NCBI GenBank assembly: GCA_944376425.1
Contig: CALWCS010000060.1
Span: forward strand, 1-52,213
Source: an uncultured Lachnospiraceae bacterium
GTDB taxonomy: Bacteria; Bacillota; Clostridia; Lachnospirales; Lachnospiraceae
DNA: 52,213 nt
Reading direction: 5' to 3'
The position numbers were made by a program, and so were the translations under genes. Within the stretch, counting starts at the first letter, position 1; each line of letters begins with the position of its first letter. Positions 115-9,312 of this stretch are shown piece after piece. The notes below the pieces were generated by a model that did no database searches, was not told the DNA's origin, and saw nothing but the letters and a program-made list of their open reading frames with translations.

Positions 115-957
115 TTAATGATAACGAAATCCTTTTCCGATAATCTCACTTGTATTGGAAATAAGAACAAAAGCGCAAGGATCCTGATGATGAATAAAAG
201 TACGAAGACGTACAGCCTGTGCACGGCTGACGACTGTATAAATCACATATTTTTTATCATGGGAAAAAGCCCCCATTGCTTCACATACAGTTGCACTTCT
301 GCTTAAATCAAGCGTGATAAAATCACAGATCGGTTCCGGGTCGCTGCATACAACTGTAAAATATTTGCGCAGATTAATATTTTCAATGACACCGTCAATC
401 ATGAAAGAGCGAACGAAAAGACCAAGCGTTGAGAGAAGTCCTGTCTTAATATCAAAAACAAAAAATGTAGCGGCAACAATCAGACAATCAGTCAAAAGAA
501 GCGCATTGCCAATATTAATGCTGGTATACTTTTTTAAAATCATTGCTACAATATCTGTTCCTCCGCTTGATGCTCCGATATTAAAGAGGAGCGCTGAACC
601 GACAGCAGGCAGAAAAATACCGAATGCAAGTTCTAAAATGACTTCATCTGTAAGTGGTCGTGTCATAGGACAGATTTTTTCAAGAAAGGATAGTCCGAAT
701 GACATCAGAAGACTGGTATAGACGGTTTTTATTCCAAAACCTTTTCCAAGAAGAAGAAATCCCAGAATCAAGAGAGCAATATTAATGATAGTGGTAATCA
801 CACCCCTAGAAGCAGAAGTATATTCCGAGGCAACAACTGCAATACCTGTTACTCCTCCAAACGAAAAGTTGTTTGGAAATTTAAAAAAATAGGTTCCCAC
901 GACCATAATCAGAACACCGATCGTTAGAAGAAAAAATTCTTTTATTTTGTTTTTCAT
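115..957 (-). CDS. YitT family membrane protein (DUF161/DUF2179)
   Basis: A 280-residue protein with about five to six hydrophobic segments in the first 200 residues and a soluble C-terminal DUF2179 domain of about 80 residues. This is the usual YitT arrangement and length. The segment around GASSGGTDI is typical of the family. Members sit in the cytoplasmic membrane and their substrate is unknown. The ATG at 957 is preceded by a run of G residues as ribosome binding site. A sigma-A promoter lies upstream at 994-1022. The gene is divergent from the split amidase gene. Family assignment is firm; function is not. Confidence 0.88.
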   Translation of the reverse strand: MKNKIKEFFLLTIGVLIMVVGTYFFKFPNNFSFGGVTGIAVVASEYTSASRGVITTIINIALLILGFLLLGKGFGIKTVYTSLLMSFGLSFLEKICPMTRPLTDEVILELAFGIFLPAVGSALLFNIGASSGGTDIVAMILKKYTSINIGNALLLTDCLIVAATFFVFDIKTGLLSTLGLFVRSFMIDGVIENINLRKYFTVVCSDPEPICDFITLDLSRSATVCEAMGAFSHDKKYVIYTVVSRAQAVRLRTFIHHQDPCAFVLISNTSEIIGKGFRYH

Positions 958-993
958 TGGAATCCCCCTTACAATTTGAGGATTTTTGATTTT

Positions 994-1022
994 ATTATAT
1001 CATTTCCATATGGGGTTCTCAA
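994..1022 (-). promoter_or_regulatory. Sigma-A promoter of the YitT-family gene
   Basis: On the minus strand TTGAGA (1022-1017) and TATAAT (999-994) are separated by 17 bp, and the start codon lies about 37 bp downstream. Confidence 0.7.
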
Positions 1023-1134
1023 GTATTTCATTGAAAATGTCGAAAAGAAGCAAGAAAAATAGAACAAAAATGATGTGATAAATTGAAAAAATTTAGGATA
1101 AACTAGAAAGAAGAAAAAGAGAGGAGAAAGGGCT

Positions 1135-1305
1135 ATGAAAGACAAGAAAAAATGGGAAGTGTGGATGGGAACTTTTTTACTGATTGCCGTTTTGCTTTTA
1201 TCCACAATGGGAATCAAAAAAACGGTTCAGGATACCATGGCACAGAAAGAGGAACAAAAAATTGTTGTGTTAGATGCAGGACACGGTGCGTATCCGTTGC
1301 GTTAA
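1135..1305 (+). pseudogene. cwlD: 5' fragment of a CwlD-type N-acetylmuramoyl-L-alanine amidase gene, cut by an insertion
   Basis: The open frame gives 56 residues: a basic start, one membrane or signal segment (about 10-26), and the first strand of an Amidase_3 domain ending VVLDAGHG, where the His is the first zinc ligand. The frame then runs into unrelated sequence (AYPLR) and stops. The missing part, beginning HGGADPGKIG, is found in frame at 7866-8420. CwlD-type amidases remove peptides from spore cortex muramic acid as a step toward muramic delta-lactam. The ribosome binding site GAGGAGA precedes the ATG at 1135. Joined with the right-hand fragment the protein would be 233 residues, the normal CwlD length. 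The fragment alone cannot be active. Confidence 0.85.
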
Positions 1306-1365
1306 AAATTGTGTGAATAATCTGATAAATTTATAGAAAAGATCCTTCTTGTATGTAAAAAATAC

Positions 1366-1394
1366 TTGACCCAACGAAAAGATTACTATATAAT
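1366..1394 (+). promoter_or_regulatory. Sigma-A promoter for the first esterase
   Basis: TTGACC (1366-1371) and TATAAT (1389-1394) with a 17-bp spacer. Transcription would start near 1401, leaving a 5' leader of about 345 nt before the ATG at 1748. Confidence 0.7.
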
Positions 1395-1397
1395 TAA

Positions 1398-1482
1398 AAT
1401 ACGGTATAAGACGGAAAACAAGAATGCCTGAAATCTATATATTGTCAGGCATGTTTTCATGTTAAGGTCTTATTCGGTTACC
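1398..1482 (+). promoter_or_regulatory. Structured RNA leader of the first esterase
   Basis: Starting just after the predicted transcription start there are nested inverted repeats: ataagac/gtcttat on the outside, then gaaaac/gttttc, then atgcctga/tcaggcat with a 13-nt loop. The innermost arm is followed by only a short T-run. A 13-codon ORF (ATG at 1424) lies in the inner hairpin, with a weak ribosome binding site. The rest of the gap (1483-1747) is A-rich, with no gene seen. I cannot match this leader to a known riboswitch. Confidence 0.45.
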
Positions 1483-1747
1483 TATTATCATCTGTACCAT
1501 ATGATGTTATTCTTAGTTCACATAAATAGAATTTAGAATCACGTTTTTGTTTTTGAAAATGTGAAAAAGGAAAAGCAAATATGAGATACAGCGATATGGT
1601 GTCTTTAAAAGAACTTGACTGATAAAAACACAGAAAAGTAATTTTAAAGAAAAAGAGAGATTCTGAAAAGTTTTAGGATGGACCCAAAATAGTATTGACA
1701 ACCAAAAAGATCAGAAGAATTCATAGGATTCAAAGGGGGATTACAAG

Positions 1748-3244
1748 ATGAAAAGAAAGAAAGTCTTAGCTGTTTTGGCGGCAGGATGTCTGACACTGGG
1801 AATGACGTCTATGGTATCTTTTGCTACGGAGGCAGAAGCAACGCAGGCGGAAGCGACAGGAGCAGAAGCCTCCTACGAAAACGTAGTAGGTACTTCTATT
1901 TTTGTACAAGGATATGAATGGGGACCAGGTGTTCCAAAAATCATTTTAGAACTTGCAAATGAAGTGTCTTCTGTCAGTGCACAGAATTGCATTGTGACAA
2001 CGGCAGGAACAGAACGTACTGTGACGGACATTTATCCATGTGACGAAAATGGTGAGAGAACAGAAGGTTCTTCCAAATATATAGCGATTGAGATGGAGAC
2101 AACATCAGAAGTATCGGGTTCTCCATTTACATATGATATGTCTGTTATGATGAATAAATGGGCAGAGACTTATGAAGTAAGCGTAAATTGTTCTGATTTT
2201 ACGGTAGATGGAGAGGCATATCCTCTTGCTGTTAATGAGGACTGCATTAACAGCCGTATCTGCCCGGATACAGAGAGATTTTCGAATAGAGGTTCCTTTA
2301 CCGGAACATATATGAATAACTTTACAGGAGAAGAAGAAGAAGTAACGCTTCGGACAGCTGCTTATGAACCGCAAGATATTGCAGACGGAGAACAAAATCC
2401 ATTAATTATCTGGCTGCATGGACAGGGCGAAGGCGGTACAGATCCTGATATTGAAATTCTCGGAAATGAAGTTTGTGCGTTGGCAAGAGAAGAAATTCAG
2501 TCCTACTTTACGGCAGGAGATGAAGTTGGAGCATACGTTCTTGCTGTTCAGTGCGAGACATACTGGATGGATGAAGGCGACGGAACAAACGGAAGCGGAA
2601 GCGGTGTTTCCAGATACACAGAGATTTTAATGGATACGATTGAAGATTATGTCGCATCAAATCCGGATGTAGATCCAAATCGTATTTATTTAGGCGGATG
2701 CTCGAACGGCGGCTATATGACAATGAATATGTTAGTCAACTATCCGGATTATTTTGCAGCTGCTTATCCAATCTGCGAGGCATATGCATTTAACGAATAT
2801 GCAAGAAATGAAGATGGAACTTATAAACAAGGCGAAAACGGAGTAGAGAAGACAGAAACTCGTTGGATGACGGATGAAAAGATTGAATCGATCAAAGATA
2901 TTCCGATCTGGTTCGTATTATCAGTAGATGACTTTGTAGTTGACCCGGCATCTTATGAACTTCCAACTTACCGAGCACTGGTACAGGCAGGAGCAGAAAA
3001 CTGCTGGCTGTCTCTGTATGAATCTATCGTTGGAACTGACAGTCCAGGATCAACCTATATGGGACACTTTGCATGGGTTTATGTACTGAACAATCAGGTA
3101 ACAGGCGTTCAGGATAAAGAAGCGATTGCAGCGTCTACAGATAATGAGACATTTGGAACAACTCCGACAAACGATGGCGGCGGAACACTGCCGGCTGGAG
3201 AGTATACAAATATCTTTGCATGGATGAATGCACAGTCAAAATAA
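1748..3244 (+). CDS. Secreted serine esterase with N-terminal Ig-like domain (feruloyl/acetyl esterase-like alpha/beta hydrolase)
   Basis: A 498-residue protein. Residues 1-26 form a Sec signal peptide, followed by a low-complexity Glu/Ala/Thr linker (about 27-42). Residues 45-185 resemble the EstA-type Ig-like esterase N-domain, and about 190-498 form an alpha/beta hydrolase of the PHB-depolymerase/prolyl-oligopeptidase-like type. Visible catalytic elements are the oxyanion region WLHGQGEGG, nucleophile Ser319 in GGCSNGG, Asp395 in SVDDFVV and His440 in GHFAW. It probably removes acyl or phenolic esters from plant polysaccharides outside the cell; the substrate is inferred only. The ribosome binding site is AAAGGGGG. 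It is the first gene of the inserted island, ends in a strong terminator at 3288, and is paralogous in layout to the next gene. Confidence 0.85.
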   Translation: MKRKKVLAVLAAGCLTLGMTSMVSFATEAEATQAEATGAEASYENVVGTSIFVQGYEWGPGVPKIILELANEVSSVSAQNCIVTTAGTERTVTDIYPCDENGERTEGSSKYIAIEMETTSEVSGSPFTYDMSVMMNKWAETYEVSVNCSDFTVDGEAYPLAVNEDCINSRICPDTERFSNRGSFTGTYMNNFTGEEEEVTLRTAAYEPQDIADGEQNPLIIWLHGQGEGGTDPDIEILGNEVCALAREEIQSYFTAGDEVGAYVLAVQCETYWMDEGDGTNGSGSGVSRYTEILMDTIEDYVASNPDVDPNRIYLGGCSNGGYMTMNMLVNYPDYFAAAYPICEAYAFNEYARNEDGTYKQGENGVEKTETRWMTDEKIESIKDIPIWFVLSVDDFVVDPASYELPTYRALVQAGAENCWLSLYESIVGTDSPGSTYMGHFAWVYVLNNQVTGVQDKEAIAASTDNETFGTTPTNDGGGTLPAGEYTNIFAWMNAQSK

Positions 3245-3287
3245 AAGAGAATAGGTATTAGGATATCGGAAGAATTCCTGAAAAGAT

Positions 3288-3337
3288 AAGGAGCTTTTGC
3301 ATAAACTGTGAAAACGGAGTGCAAAAGCTCCTTTTTT
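3288..3337 (+). terminator. Terminator after the first esterase
   Basis: AGGAGCTTTTGC at 3289-3300 pairs with its complement at 3320-3331, followed by a T-run. The two esterases are therefore probably separate transcripts. Confidence 0.85.
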
Positions 3338-3452
3338 GAAAAAAGATCGAAAAGATCTAAAAAAATGAGAAATATTTGATAAAAAAAAGAGAAGAATTAT
3401 GGTATCGTAAAAATATCATAAAAAACGGAAAAATACACGAAAGGAGTAATCT

Positions 3453-4703
3453 ATGAAAAGGAAACTGACAGGATGCCTTTTGCTGGCTTTGACAATTTCA
3501 AGTACAGCAATGGCAAGTGAAGCTACAAAAGCAGAAGCAGTGCCGTCGGAGGCGACTGCTTCAGAGGCAGAGTCATCGGTCGTAACTGATATTTTAATGG
3601 AAACAGTCATCGGAGATAATGGACGGGAAGTAAAAAGTATCGTATATGAAGTGACCGATATGGAACAGGCAGAAAATTTGTCGCCGGAGGATTTTTATAT
3701 TACATTGGGCGAAACTGTGTATGCAGTAGAAGAAATAAAGACAGAAGGCAATACTGTGACCATTGTTCCCGAGACATTCAGCTATGCAGGGACAGACGAT
3801 TTTACAACAGGGGAACATTACGACTTCTTTGTAGACTGTACGAACAATGACTTTGACTGTACAAAGGAGCAGGCAAAACTTAAGACAGAATGGATAGATG
3901 ATTTTGAACATGGAAGTTTTACGGCAAGCAACAAAGAAGAATTAAGTTATTGGCTGTATATGCCGCAGGATGCAGAAAATGTGCCTTTAATGGTATGGGA
4001 ACATGGAGGAGGAGAGGTGCTGGATTCTTCTTATGAAGGCGCTAATCTGGATAAAAACAAAGGTGCTGTGACATGGATGCAGCATGGAAAAGAGACGGCC
4101 GTTTTATCTGTACAATATCCAACTAATTATTCGTTTGGTATTTCAGAAAAAACAGAAGAATGGGAACAGATGTGTGCTTATAATGACGCAAAATATGAAC
4201 TAATTCAAGAATTAATTGAAAATGGTCAAATAGATGAAAACCGGATTTATATTTCTGGAGCTTCATCCGGAGGCGGCGGAGTATTGAGCTTTGTGACACA
4301 GTATCCAGATCTTTTCGCAGCAGCCCTTCCCATTTGTGCGAAGGATGTGATCGTTCCGATGTCTGAGACATATGGTCTTGCGTATAAGTTTGACGGAGAA
4401 TTGACAATCAGCGATGAAGATTATCAAGAATGTTATCAGAAAATGGCTGACTATATTGAAAAACATGATATCACAGAAGTTCCGATCTGGTTTGTTCATG
4501 CAGAAAATGATCCTGTTTGCACGAGTTATACTTCCACAATTTTATATCAAGTACTGGAAGATATGGGAGCAAAAAACAATAAGATGACATTATATACAGA
4601 TGCAGAAATGCTGGAGGCAGGTCAGACATTTTTCCATAGTTCATGGGTTTTGGCATTTAATAATCAGGAAATGATTGACTGGATTTATGATCAGGTAAAG
4701 TAA
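3453..4703 (+). CDS. Secreted serine esterase, paralogue of the preceding gene
   Basis: A 416-residue protein with a signal peptide (1-22 or so), then a Ser/Glu/Ala-rich linker (about 22-45) similar in style to the neighbour. An Ig-like N-domain follows to about residue 150 and an alpha/beta hydrolase to the end. The triad is visible as Ser271 in GASSGGG, Asp353 in HAENDPV and His395 in FFHSSW; the oxyanion region is WEHGGGE. It probably acts on esterified polysaccharides outside the cell. The ribosome binding site AAAGGAG precedes the ATG at 3453. Only a weak promoter candidate (TTGATA near 3376) is visible. No own terminator is clear on the plus strand; the hairpin at 4722-4753 has its T-run on the other strand. 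Confidence 0.84.
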   Translation: MKRKLTGCLLLALTISSTAMASEATKAEAVPSEATASEAESSVVTDILMETVIGDNGREVKSIVYEVTDMEQAENLSPEDFYITLGETVYAVEEIKTEGNTVTIVPETFSYAGTDDFTTGEHYDFFVDCTNNDFDCTKEQAKLKTEWIDDFEHGSFTASNKEELSYWLYMPQDAENVPLMVWEHGGGEVLDSSYEGANLDKNKGAVTWMQHGKETAVLSVQYPTNYSFGISEKTEEWEQMCAYNDAKYELIQELIENGQIDENRIYISGASSGGGGVLSFVTQYPDLFAAALPICAKDVIVPMSETYGLAYKFDGELTISDEDYQECYQKMADYIEKHDITEVPIWFVHAENDPVCTSYTSTILYQVLEDMGAKNNKMTLYTDAEMLEAGQTFFHSSWVLAFNNQEMIDWIYDQVK

Positions 4704-4710
4704 AAGAATA

Positions 4711-4753
4711 AAAAAAAAGAGACTGCCGTAGAAGATATTATTTCTGCGGCAGT
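4711..4753 (-). terminator. Terminator of the leftward regulator operon
   Basis: Inverted repeat ACTGCCG (4722-4728) / CGGCAGT (4747-4753). The A-run at 4711-4719 gives a long T-run on the minus strand, just past the kinase stop codon. Confidence 0.75.
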
Positions 4754-4757
4754 AAGA

Positions 4758-6077
4758 TTAAAGCTCCGGAGTATCAGAATCATCCTGATTAGGAATAGGA
4801 AGAAGGATTTTGAGTGAGAAAATATGATTTTGAACTTCAACTGTCATACAGCCACCGTATTTTTCAGCAATATATCGAATACTTTTCAGACCGAAACCAT
4901 GAAATCCGTTTTGCTCTTTTGTAGAAAGCGGCATTCCGTTTTCAAATGCTAGATTTTTCTCACAGTAATTTTCAATACAGATTCGAAGCAGTTTCTGCTC
5001 TGTATATACTTTAACGTCAATGGCACGCAGACTTGGCTCTTGGATTTGTCTGACACTTTCTATTGCATTTTCTAATGCATTTCCGAATATGGAATAGATA
5101 TCCACAACATTCATAAATTTTAACGGTTTTCCGTCAGCTACACAGAGCAGACGGATCTTTTTTTTGTCACAGTACAAACTTTTTTCTGTAAGTACTGTAT
5201 CTAAAACAGCATTACCAGTTTGAACAATACAATCATAAATTTGAATAGAATGCTGAATTTCGTGAAAAAATTCTGCCTGTTGTTTTTGCGGAATCATATA
5301 CTGCAATGCCAAAATCTGATGACGAAGATCATGACATTTTTGATTGATCAAAGCAATATTTTCTTCAGAGATTCGATATTGTTGCTGCTCTTTATACCAG
5401 AGTTGACGGATCAGATATAATTCCTGTTCTAATTCATGGCGTTGTGTCTGATTTCTCTGTAAAAAAAGCGCACAGATGCAGCACAGGAGTGAGAAAATTT
5501 GAAAGAGAAAAATAACAATACCACCAGTTCCATCCCACTGATAAATATGATTATTAAACACAATGACCGGGATTACTGTGACAGCAGCAAGCAGTGTCTG
5601 TTTGGGTCTTACACAAAACATACCATTTGTCTGAATTTTAGGAACGATTAGAAAGAAAACAAGGCAAAAAGTAACTGCCGAAACGGGAAAACGCAGAATA
5701 TAGGTTATGTGCCAAAAATTACATGACAAATACAGCAGCAGAAAACTACGGAAAAGTCCGACAAGCTGCAGATTAAAAAAGTAAATGGTATAGCACCATA
5801 AGGCACAATAGAACGCACTGCAGACAGTATCACAGATACAAAAAAAGCAAAATGCAAATAAAAGAATAAAATTGACAAAAAATAACAAAAACCAAGCAAA
5901 CTTGGGCAGTGCCATATAAATGAGATATTCCGGAAATAATATACAAAACAGAATATAAATTCCAAGACATAATAAGAACCTGCAAACGGGATGAGAACGT
6001 TTCTTAGAACGTATAAAAAAAGCAATCCACGGCAACAGAATACGGCATATACTTCCAGATAAATTGATCCATTCCAT
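4758..6077 (-). CDS. GHKL sensor histidine kinase (AgrC/LytS-like)
   Basis: A 439-residue membrane kinase. The start is the ATG at 6077 (MEWINLSG), preceded by AAGAAGGG; the frame is open further upstream into the AraC gene but without a ribosome binding site. About six hydrophobic segments fill residues 1-200, followed by a coiled linker. The phosphoacceptor region is CHDLRHQI, the N-box NALENAIE, and the ATP-binding G-box GFGLKSIRYIAEKYGG. This is the architecture of peptide- or small-molecule-sensing kinases paired with LytTR regulators. It begins 16 bp after the AraC gene and is the last gene of the leftward operon. No AgrB/AgrD-like genes are nearby, so its signal is unknown. Confidence 0.87.
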   Translation of the reverse strand: MEWINLSGSICRILLPWIAFFIRSKKRSHPVCRFLLCLGIYILFCILFPEYLIYMALPKFAWFLLFFVNFILLFAFCFFCICDTVCSAFYCALWCYTIYFFNLQLVGLFRSFLLLYLSCNFWHITYILRFPVSAVTFCLVFFLIVPKIQTNGMFCVRPKQTLLAAVTVIPVIVFNNHIYQWDGTGGIVIFLFQIFSLLCCICALFLQRNQTQRHELEQELYLIRQLWYKEQQQYRISEENIALINQKCHDLRHQILALQYMIPQKQQAEFFHEIQHSIQIYDCIVQTGNAVLDTVLTEKSLYCDKKKIRLLCVADGKPLKFMNVVDIYSIFGNALENAIESVRQIQEPSLRAIDVKVYTEQKLLRICIENYCEKNLAFENGMPLSTKEQNGFHGFGLKSIRYIAEKYGGCMTVEVQNHIFSLKILLPIPNQDDSDTPEL

Positions 6078-6093
6078 CCATAAACCCTTCTTT

Positions 6094-6855
6094 CTACCAG
6101 TGAGAATGGAAATACAGCTTTCGATAACGATTCGGAGAGAGTCCGTTATACTTACGAAAAATTTCAGTAAAATGACTTTGACTGCAAAATCCCAAGTATT
6201 GTGCAATTTCATTCAGACTATATTCAGAATAACGCAGAAGACGTTCGGCTTCTCTGACACGATTTCTATGAATAAATTCCCGAAAAGAAAGACCAGTTTC
6301 TTTTTTAAAGAGAGTACTGAAATATGGTTCAGAGAAGCCGGTTTTTTCTGCAACTTCTTTAAGAGTCAGATCACAGTGCAGATGCTGAAGAATATAATCT
6401 TGCGCATAGCGTATGGAAGTAGAATACTTTGGATTTTGACGAACAAGATGTACCTCTTGAGAAAAATCTAAGAGCATCTGGTGATGGATAGACTGAAGAT
6501 TGGAAATGGTAGAAGCAGCATATGTCTGACGAATATAGACTTCACCAAGAGAATATGCTTCATCCTCTGTCATGCCTGCCTCGACGGCGGCGTGAATTGC
6601 CGTCGAAATCTCAACGATAACGAGAAATAAAAGGGAATGATAAAGAGAAGAAGCCTCAAGAGAGTTAGAAAAATAACCGGATAAAGATAACGGCACTATA
6701 TTTTCTAAACATCCGTCTAGGATTAACTGACGAATTTTTTGATCTCTTAACTGACGATTATGTCCTGACAATAACTCACGGCTTTTAAATAAGGCATGAG
6801 TATAAGTCTGCTCCTGAAAAACAGAACGTTTCACAGATTGTTTTAATGGTTTCAT
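6094..6855 (-). CDS. AraC-family transcriptional regulator
   Basis: A 253-residue protein. Residues 1-140 form a helical N-domain not tied to a known ligand. About 150-250 form the double helix-turn-helix of AraC/XylS, with the family signature around NEIAQYLGFCSQSHFTEIFRKYNG. The start chosen is the ATG at 6855 (MKPLKQ), preceded by a seven-G ribosome binding site; a TTG six codons upstream lies in that tract and is less likely. It sits between the LytTR regulator and the kinase in one operon, an unusual place for a stand-alone AraC protein, and may control the two divergent esterase genes. That target is inferred from position only. Confidence 0.86.
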   Translation of the reverse strand: MKPLKQSVKRSVFQEQTYTHALFKSRELLSGHNRQLRDQKIRQLILDGCLENIVPLSLSGYFSNSLEASSLYHSLLFLVIVEISTAIHAAVEAGMTEDEAYSLGEVYIRQTYAASTISNLQSIHHQMLLDFSQEVHLVRQNPKYSTSIRYAQDYILQHLHCDLTLKEVAEKTGFSEPYFSTLFKKETGLSFREFIHRNRVREAERLLRYSEYSLNEIAQYLGFCSQSHFTEIFRKYNGLSPNRYRKLYFHSHW

Positions 6856-6956
6856 TTTGATTTTCCCCCCCAAAAATCAATTTTTTTTATTATAAAAGAT
6901 AGAGTCAGTAAATACGACATTTTTTGCAAAATCGGTTCTTAGGAGTGCATAATCGG

Positions 6957-7655
6957 TTACAGAGAAAAACGGGTCAAGTCCATCATAAAGTTTTTGCGGT
7001 TGCGGCGACTCATCTGAAGCTCATGACCGGCAACAAGAATAGAATCCTTTTTTACTTCCTGAACATGACGCAAATTGACAAGATAGCAGCTGTTACATTT
7101 TGAAAAACTGCATCCTTTCAATAACTGTTCCATTTTTTTTAGAGAACTGCTGCATTTATATGTTCCTTCACTGGAATAAAAATAAATATGATGCTGAATG
7201 ACTTCCAGATAATAAATTTGATTTATATAGAGACGTTTCCAACCGCTGCCCTGAGGAATAACAAGAGACTGATTCTGTTCTGCCTCTAAACAGCGGATAT
7301 ACCGATCTAATTTTAAAGAAAAAGAAGGATATAAAATCGGCTTTAAAATAAAATCCATAGCTCTTACTTCATATCCGTTAATTGCATACTGAGCCATACA
7401 TGTTGTAAAAACTAACATGACCTGTTTATCTTTTTCACGGATTTGCCTGGCAATCGTCATACCGTCTATTTTGGGCATACTGATATCTAAAAAAATGATA
7501 TCGTATCTGGGAATGTACTGATTCAGAAATGTCATTCCATCTGAGAAGTCAGAATACTGAATGGATTTTTTACTTTCTTTAGAATAACGATCCAGACATT
7601 TTTCAAATTGAAGAAGATCATTGCAGTTATCTTCTACGACAGCAAAATGAAACAT
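6957..7655 (-). CDS. LytTR-family response regulator
   Basis: A 232-residue protein. Residues 1-120 form a receiver domain with the acidic pair in VVEDN, phospho-acceptor Asp in FLDISMPKIDG, and the conserved Lys in DFILKP. Residues about 130-232 form a LytTR DNA-binding domain (YINQIYYLEVIQHHIYFY..., NLRHV). It pairs naturally with the GHKL kinase at 4758-6077. First gene of the leftward operon; the ribosome binding site is GAGGTGGG. The gap to the AraC gene is about 100 bp. It is probably autoregulated or cross-regulated through the palindrome at 7703-7723. Confidence 0.88.
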   Translation of the reverse strand: MFHFAVVEDNCNDLLQFEKCLDRYSKESKKSIQYSDFSDGMTFLNQYIPRYDIIFLDISMPKIDGMTIARQIREKDKQVMLVFTTCMAQYAINGYEVRAMDFILKPILYPSFSLKLDRYIRCLEAEQNQSLVIPQGSGWKRLYINQIYYLEVIQHHIYFYSSEGTYKCSSSLKKMEQLLKGCSFSKCNSCYLVNLRHVQEVKKDSILVAGHELQMSRRNRKNFMMDLTRFSL

Positions 7656-7702
7656 CGTCCCACCTCATTTTTGAAAAATTGATAGTTTATAGTCAGTCGA
7701 TC

Positions 7703-7723
7703 AATACGATTTTATATCGTATT
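7703..7723. promoter_or_regulatory. Palindrome upstream of the response regulator
   Basis: AATACGAT (7703-7710), 5-nt spacer, ATCGTATT (7716-7723): a perfect 8-bp dyad 48 bp upstream of the regulator start. Likely a protein binding site; the binder is unknown. Confidence 0.5.
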
Positions 7724-7856
7724 CGTATACTCGGACATAAGATCAAGTACAAATTTGAAAATCTGCTTTTGTATAGAGAGCCTTTAAACTGTGCTATCAT
7801 TGATGAAAATATTGTATCATAAAAAGAGAGATCTTTCTATTTTTTTCCGCAGAAAA

Positions 7857-7876
7857 GCTCCGCCCCACGGCGGAGC
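7857..7876. repeat. Perfect palindrome across the right island junction
   Basis: GCTCCGCC (7857-7864), loop CCAC, GGCGGAGC (7869-7876). The left arm belongs to the island and the right arm to the amidase gene. Confidence 0.7.
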
Positions 7877-8420
7877 GGATCCCGGCAAAATTGGAGTTAA
7901 CGGAGCGGAGGAAAAAGATATTAATCTTGCAATTGCAGAAAAGCTAAAGAAACTTCTGGAAGAAGAAGGATTTTTAGTTGTGATGACGAGAGAAGGAGAT
8001 GAGGGATTGTATGACGAAGGGTGCAGCAACAAAAAGCAGCAGGATATGAAAAGAAGATGCGAAAAAATTGATGAAGCGGAGCCGATTTTTACGGTCAGTA
8101 TTCATCAAAACAGTTATACAGATGAAAGTGTCAGAGGACCTCAGGTATTTTATTATTCCCAGTCTGAACAGGGACAAAAACTGGCGAGAAGTATTCAAGA
8201 TACTTTAAATACAGAGCTGGAAGTGGCAAAACCAAGAGAAATCAAAGAAAATGATACGTATTATATTTTGAGAAAAACGGAAAGTCCTATCGTAATTGTA
8301 GAGTGCGGATTTTTAAGTAATCCGGAAGAAGCTGATCTTTTGATCACACAAGAATATCAGGAAAAAGTAGCAGAGGCAATTAAAAATGGAATGATCTCTT
8401 ATGCAGAATCGATAGAATAA
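7866..8420 (+). pseudogene. cwlD: 3' fragment of the CwlD-type amidase gene
   Basis: This segment codes 184 residues beginning HGGADPGKIG, colinear with the fragment at 1135-1305. It keeps all expected Amidase_3 catalytic residues: His in HGGADPG, Glu in GAEEKDIN, His in SIHQNS and Glu in VECGF. The frame is open upstream to 7791 and could start at the ATG at 7803, adding 21 foreign residues. There is no good ribosome binding site there, and such a product would lack the first core strand and the membrane or signal segment. It is therefore most likely inactive unless the island is removed. The following HAD gene is 100 bp away and not overlapping. Confidence 0.82.
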
Positions 8421-8520
8421 ATAAAAAAAGATTCAGACAGAAAATAAAAGAAAATAGACAGAAGATCAGGATCGTATTAGAATAAACGACAGATTAAAGA
8501 TAAGAGAATGGAGAAATAAA

Positions 8521-9312
8521 ATGTTAAAGGACAAAAGACTGTTTTTATTTGATATTGATGGAACTATTGCTACAGGAGAAAAATTGTATGATGGCACAAA
8601 GGAACTGTTGGACTATATTGAAGAGATCAAAGGAAAGGCAATCTATATCACAAACAATTCAACGAAAAGTCTTTCCGATTATGTAAAAAAATTTTCTATT
8701 TGGAATATTAAAACAGAAGAATCTCAGTTTGTGACGTCAGGATTTATGGCGGTCAGATATTTAAAAGAGCATTTTCCGGAAAAAAAGATTTTTGTTATGG
8801 GGACACAATCATTTTTAAAGGATTTAAGACAACAGAGAATTCAAGTGACAGAAAGTGTAGAAAAAGATATTCAGTGTGTGCTGGTAGGATACGACAGTGA
8901 ATTAAATTATTCAAAACTGGAGCATGTATGTGAAATTTTGTCTACCACAGAGGCAGAATACCTTGCGACAAATCCAGACCTTTGCTGTCCGGCTCCATTT
9001 GGTTTTATACCAGACTGCGGATCTATCTGTCAGATGATTCAAAATTCAACCGGAAAAGTTCCAAAATATCTGGGAAAACCTGCAAAAGAGATTATAGATT
9101 ACTGTAGAAATCTTACCGGATTTTCGAGAGAGGAAACATTGGTGGTGGGAGATCGGCTGTATACAGATATTGCATGCGGAATTGCGGCAGATGTAGAGAC
9201 GTGTGTGGTCTATACGGGAGAGGCGACAAGAGAAGAAGTAAAAAATACAAAGTATATGCCGACGTACGAATTTGACAATATTCAAAAGTTGTTTGAAGCA
9301 GTAAGAGGATAA
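8521..9312 (+). CDS. HAD-IIA family phosphatase (NagD/4-nitrophenylphosphatase-like)
   Basis: A 263-residue cytoplasmic hydrolase. Motif I is FLFDIDGTI (nucleophile Asp11 and Asp13), motif II is ITNNST, and motifs III/IV are a Lys in LGKPAKEI and VGDRLYTDI. A C2-type cap fills the middle. The length fits NagD/AraL enzymes that dephosphorylate sugar or glycolytic side-product phosphates. The start ATG at 8521 follows GAATGGAG. It is followed by a long A-rich gap. The exact substrate cannot be read from sequence. Confidence 0.88.
   Translation: MLKDKRLFLFDIDGTIATGEKLYDGTKELLDYIEEIKGKAIYITNNSTKSLSDYVKKFSIWNIKTEESQFVTSGFMAVRYLKEHFPEKKIFVMGTQSFLKDLRQQRIQVTESVEKDIQCVLVGYDSELNYSKLEHVCEILSTTEAEYLATNPDLCCPAPFGFIPDCGSICQMIQNSTGKVPKYLGKPAKEIIDYCRNLTGFSREETLVVGDRLYTDIACGIAADVETCVVYTGEATREEVKNTKYMPTYEFDNIQKLFEAVRG

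Follow-up and report, generated by a model that had tools for sequence, protein, structure and literature searches.

A recombinase-less element splits cwlD in three Lachnospiraceae species and may be excised in trans by a recombinase housed in a second amidase gene

The cwlD gene in the window (the whole stretch of 52,213 bp analysed here, from an uncultured Lachnospiraceae bacterium) is interrupted by an insertion that carries no recombinase, and the same codon is split in two congeners. We consider it probable that the insertion is an old, domesticated element of the sigK-skin kind, which would be excised in the sporulating mother cell, in trans, by a large serine recombinase (LSR) resident in a CwlC-like amidase gene. 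The initial annotation had described a precise 6.58-kb insertion in cwlD, giving 49 + 184 codons on joining, and had left open a developmentally removed element or a recent disruption. The repeat positions and frames were confirmed. To that reading we add that the insert lacks a recombinase and that the candidate enzyme is housed in another split amidase gene.

Structure and age of the interrupted cwlD

The N-terminal frame starts at 1135 and reads ...KIVVLDAGHG; its homology is lost at a CACGG (1282-1286), and a stop follows at 1305. The C-terminal part runs from a second CACGG (7866-7870; HGGADPGKIG...) to its end at 8420. The two copies lie 6,584 bp apart, the break falls inside the codon of the zinc-binding histidine (DAG|CAC GG), and joining at this short repeat restores cwlD precisely and in frame. 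Against the NCBIfam profile TIGR02883 (CwlD), the joined protein scored 217 bits, slightly below the cut-off of 221.6, with the whole profile aligned, and by this alignment the split gene is cwlD. CwlD has its role in the mother cell, and the insertion interrupts a mother-cell sporulation gene. Upstream of cwlD in all three species lies a conserved pair, GTGATAAAT and GATAAACTA, which we take to resemble a promoter of the sigma-E/K type and which is a possible candidate for the mother-cell sigma promoter of cwlD. The initial annotation had raised the possibility of a second cwlD copy; none was found in the window's genome (G000; 3.14 Mb in 190 contigs, 96% complete), where the remaining Amidase_3 proteins are only 30-40% identical to CwlD.

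Table 1. Coordinates of the split cwlD, its insert and the pdaB loci (plain positions are those of the window; others are given by contig).
Feature	Position	Strand	Basis or remark
Conserved upstream pair GTGATAAAT (1075-1083) and GATAAACTA (1097-1105)	1075-1105	+	Same pair, similar spacing 5' of cwlD in G000, G001 and G002
cwlD N-half, 49 codons to DAG	1135-1281	+	pN/pS 0.26-0.39 (three species compared)
Left junction: inner att arm CGGTGCGTATCCGTTGCG after the core CA (1282-1283) of the histidine codon	1282-1305	+	Motif match moderate in G000, strong in G001
Intervening element, 6,584 bp, without recombinase	1282-7865	.	Frames, Pfam, Rfam
Cargo: EstA-like secreted esterase	1748-3244	+	In inserts of all three species; dN/dS about 0.10
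Cargo: second secreted alpha/beta hydrolase	3453-4703	+	Only in G000
Cargo: GHKL sensor kinase (frame open to ATG 6212)	4758-6077	-
Cargo: AraC-family regulator	6094-6855	-
Cargo: LytTR response regulator	6957-7655	-
Right junction: core CA (7866-7867), preceded by inner att arm TTTCCGCAGAAAAGCTCCGCCC (7844-7865)	7844-7867	+	Weight matrix 18.5 bits
cwlD C-half (184 codons, beginning at HGG; holds the remaining zinc and catalytic residues)	7866-8420	+	dN/dS 0.06-0.11 where computable
pdaB locus of G000 (L246)	C164:22000-36463
pdaB locus of G001 (L248)	C37:1-9000
pdaB locus of G002 (L247)	C14:18000-36000

The same codon of cwlD is split in both congeners examined, G001 (Robinsoniella sp. SUG377 in GenBank) and G002 (isolate S23M_St_10), with about 2 kb and about 3 kb between the halves, respectively. 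In all three species the EstA-like esterase comes after the N-half; G001 has nothing more, and G002 also carries an XRE regulator and a Spo0A_C protein (L022:2685-3131, minus strand), which consists of the Spo0A C-terminal domain only. Neither a site-specific recombinase nor transfer genes were found in the cwlD inserts of the three species. By Pfam, the window's insert holds hydrolases and regulators only and no phage genes, and a prophage was rejected on this ground. A self-splicing intron was likewise rejected, with no Rfam match in 900-8700 and no reverse transcriptase.

Selection on the halves was assessed by the Nei-Gojobori method across the three species. The C-half gave a pS of 0.65-0.77 and a pN of 0.14-0.16, and the N-half gave the pN/pS listed in Table 1; synonymous sites are near saturation among G000, G001 and G002, so the dN/dS values are approximate. 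Intact neighbour genes gave like values (HAD, dN/dS about 0.09-0.12), and neither half contains a stop or frameshift in G000, G001 or G002. Purifying selection acts on both halves in all three. These ratios, together with the open frames, indicate that cwlD has not been dead since the common ancestor, and a dead pseudogene was rejected on the dN/dS. Judged from these comparisons, the insertion is ancestral to the three species and a recent disruption is excluded, while a removed element fits. The relatives thus share the split with halves that are not decayed, and cwlD is uninterrupted in most other Lachnospiraceae genera searched, so empty sites, another point raised by the initial annotation, do exist.

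Independent translation of the C-half was rejected, as in G001 the stretch from the upstream stop to HGG contains no start codon. Among 46 comparable loci, the C-half frame is full length in 45 and lacks a start codon before HGG in 30; with G001, this argues that the C-half alone is not the product in general. Possible start codons do lie 5' of the C-half in G000 and G002.

Of other sporulation genes, spoIVA and sigK were found. In G000, spoIVA is in two pieces (C117:8-937 and C3:3-527), each at a contig end, and since it is whole in G001 and G002 this is probably a contig break; an insertion may be an alternative cause.

The recombinase in a second amidase gene, its targets and the attachment sites

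The LSR adjoining the split cwlD of Hominisplanchenecus faecis (L052) was used as the query to search the three genomes. The best match in each lies within a second amidase gene, CwlC-like (Amidase_3 + SPOR; contig C17 in G000), which is split at the same DPG|CAY GG codons in all three species by an insert of about 1.6 kb holding little beyond the LSR. In G001, the amidase start codon runs directly into the LSR (MAKIVIDPGHGEGKMRKMDARVAAYVRLSREDGDK...). Both the CwlC-like gene (C-half dN/dS about 0.1) and its LSR (pN/pS 0.24-0.26; three species) are under purifying selection. Intact versions of the gene occur in other genera, for example in G030, G017 and G028. A simple pattern search found no clear mother-cell promoter 5' of the CwlC-like gene, and no recombination directionality factor (RDF) was recognised; both points weaken the case for excision by this LSR. 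LSRs from viral contigs (n = 72) were at most 49% identical, by protein identity alone. A separate locus in G001 (L077, C44:1550-5812) carries three LSR-type genes in tandem.

GTDB genomes were then scanned with an LSR alignment, and the best 80 of 529 matches were kept; similarity to the CwlC-resident LSR defined this sample, which is not representative of LSRs at large. In 46 of these 80 loci, an Amidase_3 C-half starts exactly at HGG 3' of the LSR (29 labelled cwlD-like, 17 CwlC-like). In a further 15, from other Lachnospiraceae (L088, L092, L107, L113, L131, L153 and nine loci with one junction), a PdaB-like deacetylase is split at FDA-A|W by an LSR element in the opposite orientation; one joined PdaB-like gene scored 219 bits against TIGR02764 (cut-off 237). 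At three more loci the LSR has an amidase N-half for its neighbour, and at two an amidase lying on the opposite strand. Together, no fewer than 66 of these 80 closest LSRs lie in or at Amidase_3 or PdaB-like genes. LSRs that are 94-98% identical occupy a cwlD-type gene in one genome and a CwlC-like gene in another; as some cwlD-labelled targets elsewhere are only 26-39% like CwlD, we single out L123/L133 and L081 or L084/L082 as the clearest such pairs. Two LSRs that are 95% identical reside in cwlD (L087) and pdaB (L086).

The 22 bases 5' of CAYGG carry a common motif, approximately TTtgCGCAAnTtAcatCCgcCa. A weight matrix was built from 24 non-redundant loci, all outside the window's genus, and with it none of the window's 104,382 positions scored higher than the right junction of the insert, which ranked first on its own. 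The cwlD right junctions of G001 and G002 scored 14.1 and 25.4, and the three CwlC-like junctions 15.1-15.5, against -9 to -29 at the same place in intact genes. That the two congeners share the codon of the split, and that the right junction scores highest for a motif derived from other genera, argues that the split of cwlD is more than chance. The left arm in G000 has diverged, with 57 of 104,388 window positions scoring as high.

Both gene halves are visible at 14 loci, 1.6-9.5 kb apart, one of them (L137) in Sellimonas caecigallum. The attP rebuilt from these outside loci is an imperfect inverted repeat, with 10-16 of 21 positions paired and its best centre between C and A of the histidine codon in 14 of 14, and CA is therefore predicted to be the crossover dinucleotide. 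The left copy in the CwlC-like gene of G002 fits this prediction, having drifted to CAG with CA kept. Within the window's genus the attP symmetry is weak (8-10 of 21 pairs); this and the diverged left arm leave excision activity in G000 specifically unsure. Elsewhere, at L097:4600-4820, a complete attP-like inverted repeat surrounds a CATGG just 3' of an LSR and outside any amidase, and 5' of the repeat a pdaB C-half adjoins another LSR; the site does not clearly represent an excised circle.

A third spore cell-wall gene, pdaB, is split at FDAAW in G000, G001 and G002 by an insert without a recombinase, carrying exporter genes that resemble ThrE (identified by eye). The arms scored 13.9 and 4.8 in G000, 16.2 and 13.7 in G001, and 15.6 in G002. 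A different LSR element splits pdaB a second time, at RPPYG|DY, in G000 and G001; G002 is continuous there. In pdaB, pN/pS was 0.19-0.25 (middle piece) and 0.25-0.42 (C piece).

Proposed excision and competing explanations

Building on the same-codon split in three species, the selection on the halves, the shared att motif and targets, and the LSR in the second gene, we infer an excision event, its timing in sporulation and its action in trans. In vegetative cells and the forespore lineage, the block would stay within cwlD with its cargo genes. During sporulation, the LSR resident in the CwlC-like gene would recombine attL and attR of cwlD in the mother cell, across the CA of the histidine codon; the block would leave as a circle and cwlD would be restored. 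The same LSR would also free its own CwlC-like host gene, and would probably excise the recombinase-less FDAAW insert from pdaB. Excision would cost the progeny nothing because the mother cell dies, as has been argued for such elements (PMC6957869). Whether this extends to a multi-gene programmed rearrangement is, in our estimate, an even question: one LSR, housed in and released with the CwlC-like gene, would reconstitute no fewer than three interrupted genes for the spore cell wall (CwlC-like, cwlD, and pdaB at FDAAW) in mother cells of this genus. It would act in trans on the elements that lack a recombinase, and its family would be specialised for the active-site codons of enzymes of the spore cell wall.

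Excision by a recombinase other than the CwlC-resident LSR is rather unlikely. G000 does contain further LSRs (C164, C141 and C83), and the divergence of its left cwlD arm would suit such an enzyme, but the CwlC-resident LSR alone recurs in G000, G001 and G002 with both target and arms in agreement; those ranked next share 28-41% identity with the query, and the pdaB-borne LSR occupies another sequence, RPPYG|DY. It is quite improbable that cwlD is not rebuilt at all and that a stranded mobile element separates halves that decay or are used separately. The lack of a recombinase in the insert and the possible start codons upstream of the C-half in G000 and G002 would agree with this, but purifying selection on both halves is seen in three species, no start codon precedes the zinc ligand of the G001 C-half, and the N-half alone would be a short peptide.

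Random or stress-driven excision, as in a conjugative element and not tied to sporulation, is very unlikely: related LSRs do lie in conjugative-element-like DNA (for example L052 of H. faecis), but the inserts of the genus lack transfer genes and the targets throughout are spore cell-wall genes. An assembly join error or chimeric contig, which the initial annotation had also considered, is scarcely credible even for a window from a 190-contig assembly, as three separate assemblies agree on the junction and the first cargo gene, and equivalent splits occur in the isolates Sellimonas caecigallum SW451 and Hominisplanchenecus faecis CLA-AA-H246. We retain excision in trans by the CwlC-resident LSR as the preferred reading.

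Comparison with known intervening elements

The recombinase and the split gene are separated here, an arrangement kept since the common ancestor of the three species, and several spore genes would consequently depend on one enzyme. The arrangement offers a way to test directly whether genome editing in the mother cell is coordinated between loci. Moreover, sporulating cells may hold intact versions of cwlD, pdaB and CwlC-like genes that seem disrupted in Lachnospiraceae assemblies, and seemingly disrupted copies are thus no basis for predicting that sporulation is absent. A full-text literature search, with subscription papers outside its scope, found no published split of cwlD, cwlC or pdaB.

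The split mother-cell genes sigK, spsM, spoVFB, spoVR, gerE and yabG each have a recombination unit in the same gene (PMC6957869, PMC5595907, PMC10747680). The cwlD element is skin-like in its proposed working but fails this usual feature, an internal recombinase. As with skin in sigK, which is served by SpoIVCA in Bacillus subtilis and occurs with its RDF in Clostridioides difficile (PMC5025042), a mother-cell gene is split at a precise site, a serine recombinase is proposed to rebuild it, and the element would be carried through the spore; unlike skin, the target is cwlD and the candidate enzyme resides in another split gene. The gin element in gerE of Bacillus cereus (PMC5595907) is likewise a non-phage intervening element in a mother-cell gene. 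Its LSR, inverted-repeat att sites and 2-bp core are paralleled by those predicted for the cwlD element, but it has recombinases GirA-C and the RDF GirX of its own. The clostridial element yin, in yabG of Clostridium botulinum, is excised as a circle, as is only proposed for the cwlD insert; yin is prophage-like, has its own recombinase and is reported from one strain (PMC10747680), whereas the cwlD insert has neither phage genes nor a recombinase and occurs in three species. For multi-targeting LSRs, close relatives have been described in different target genes, with no amidases or deacetylases in the main text (PMC10083194); the classifiable targets here are active-site codons of spore cell-wall enzymes. 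Finally, work on the SP-beta, skin and ICEBs1 units of B. subtilis established that a supplied integrase unit can serve a different element (PMC6957869). Those were engineered swaps, whereas the cwlD case is a proposed natural separation kept in three species.
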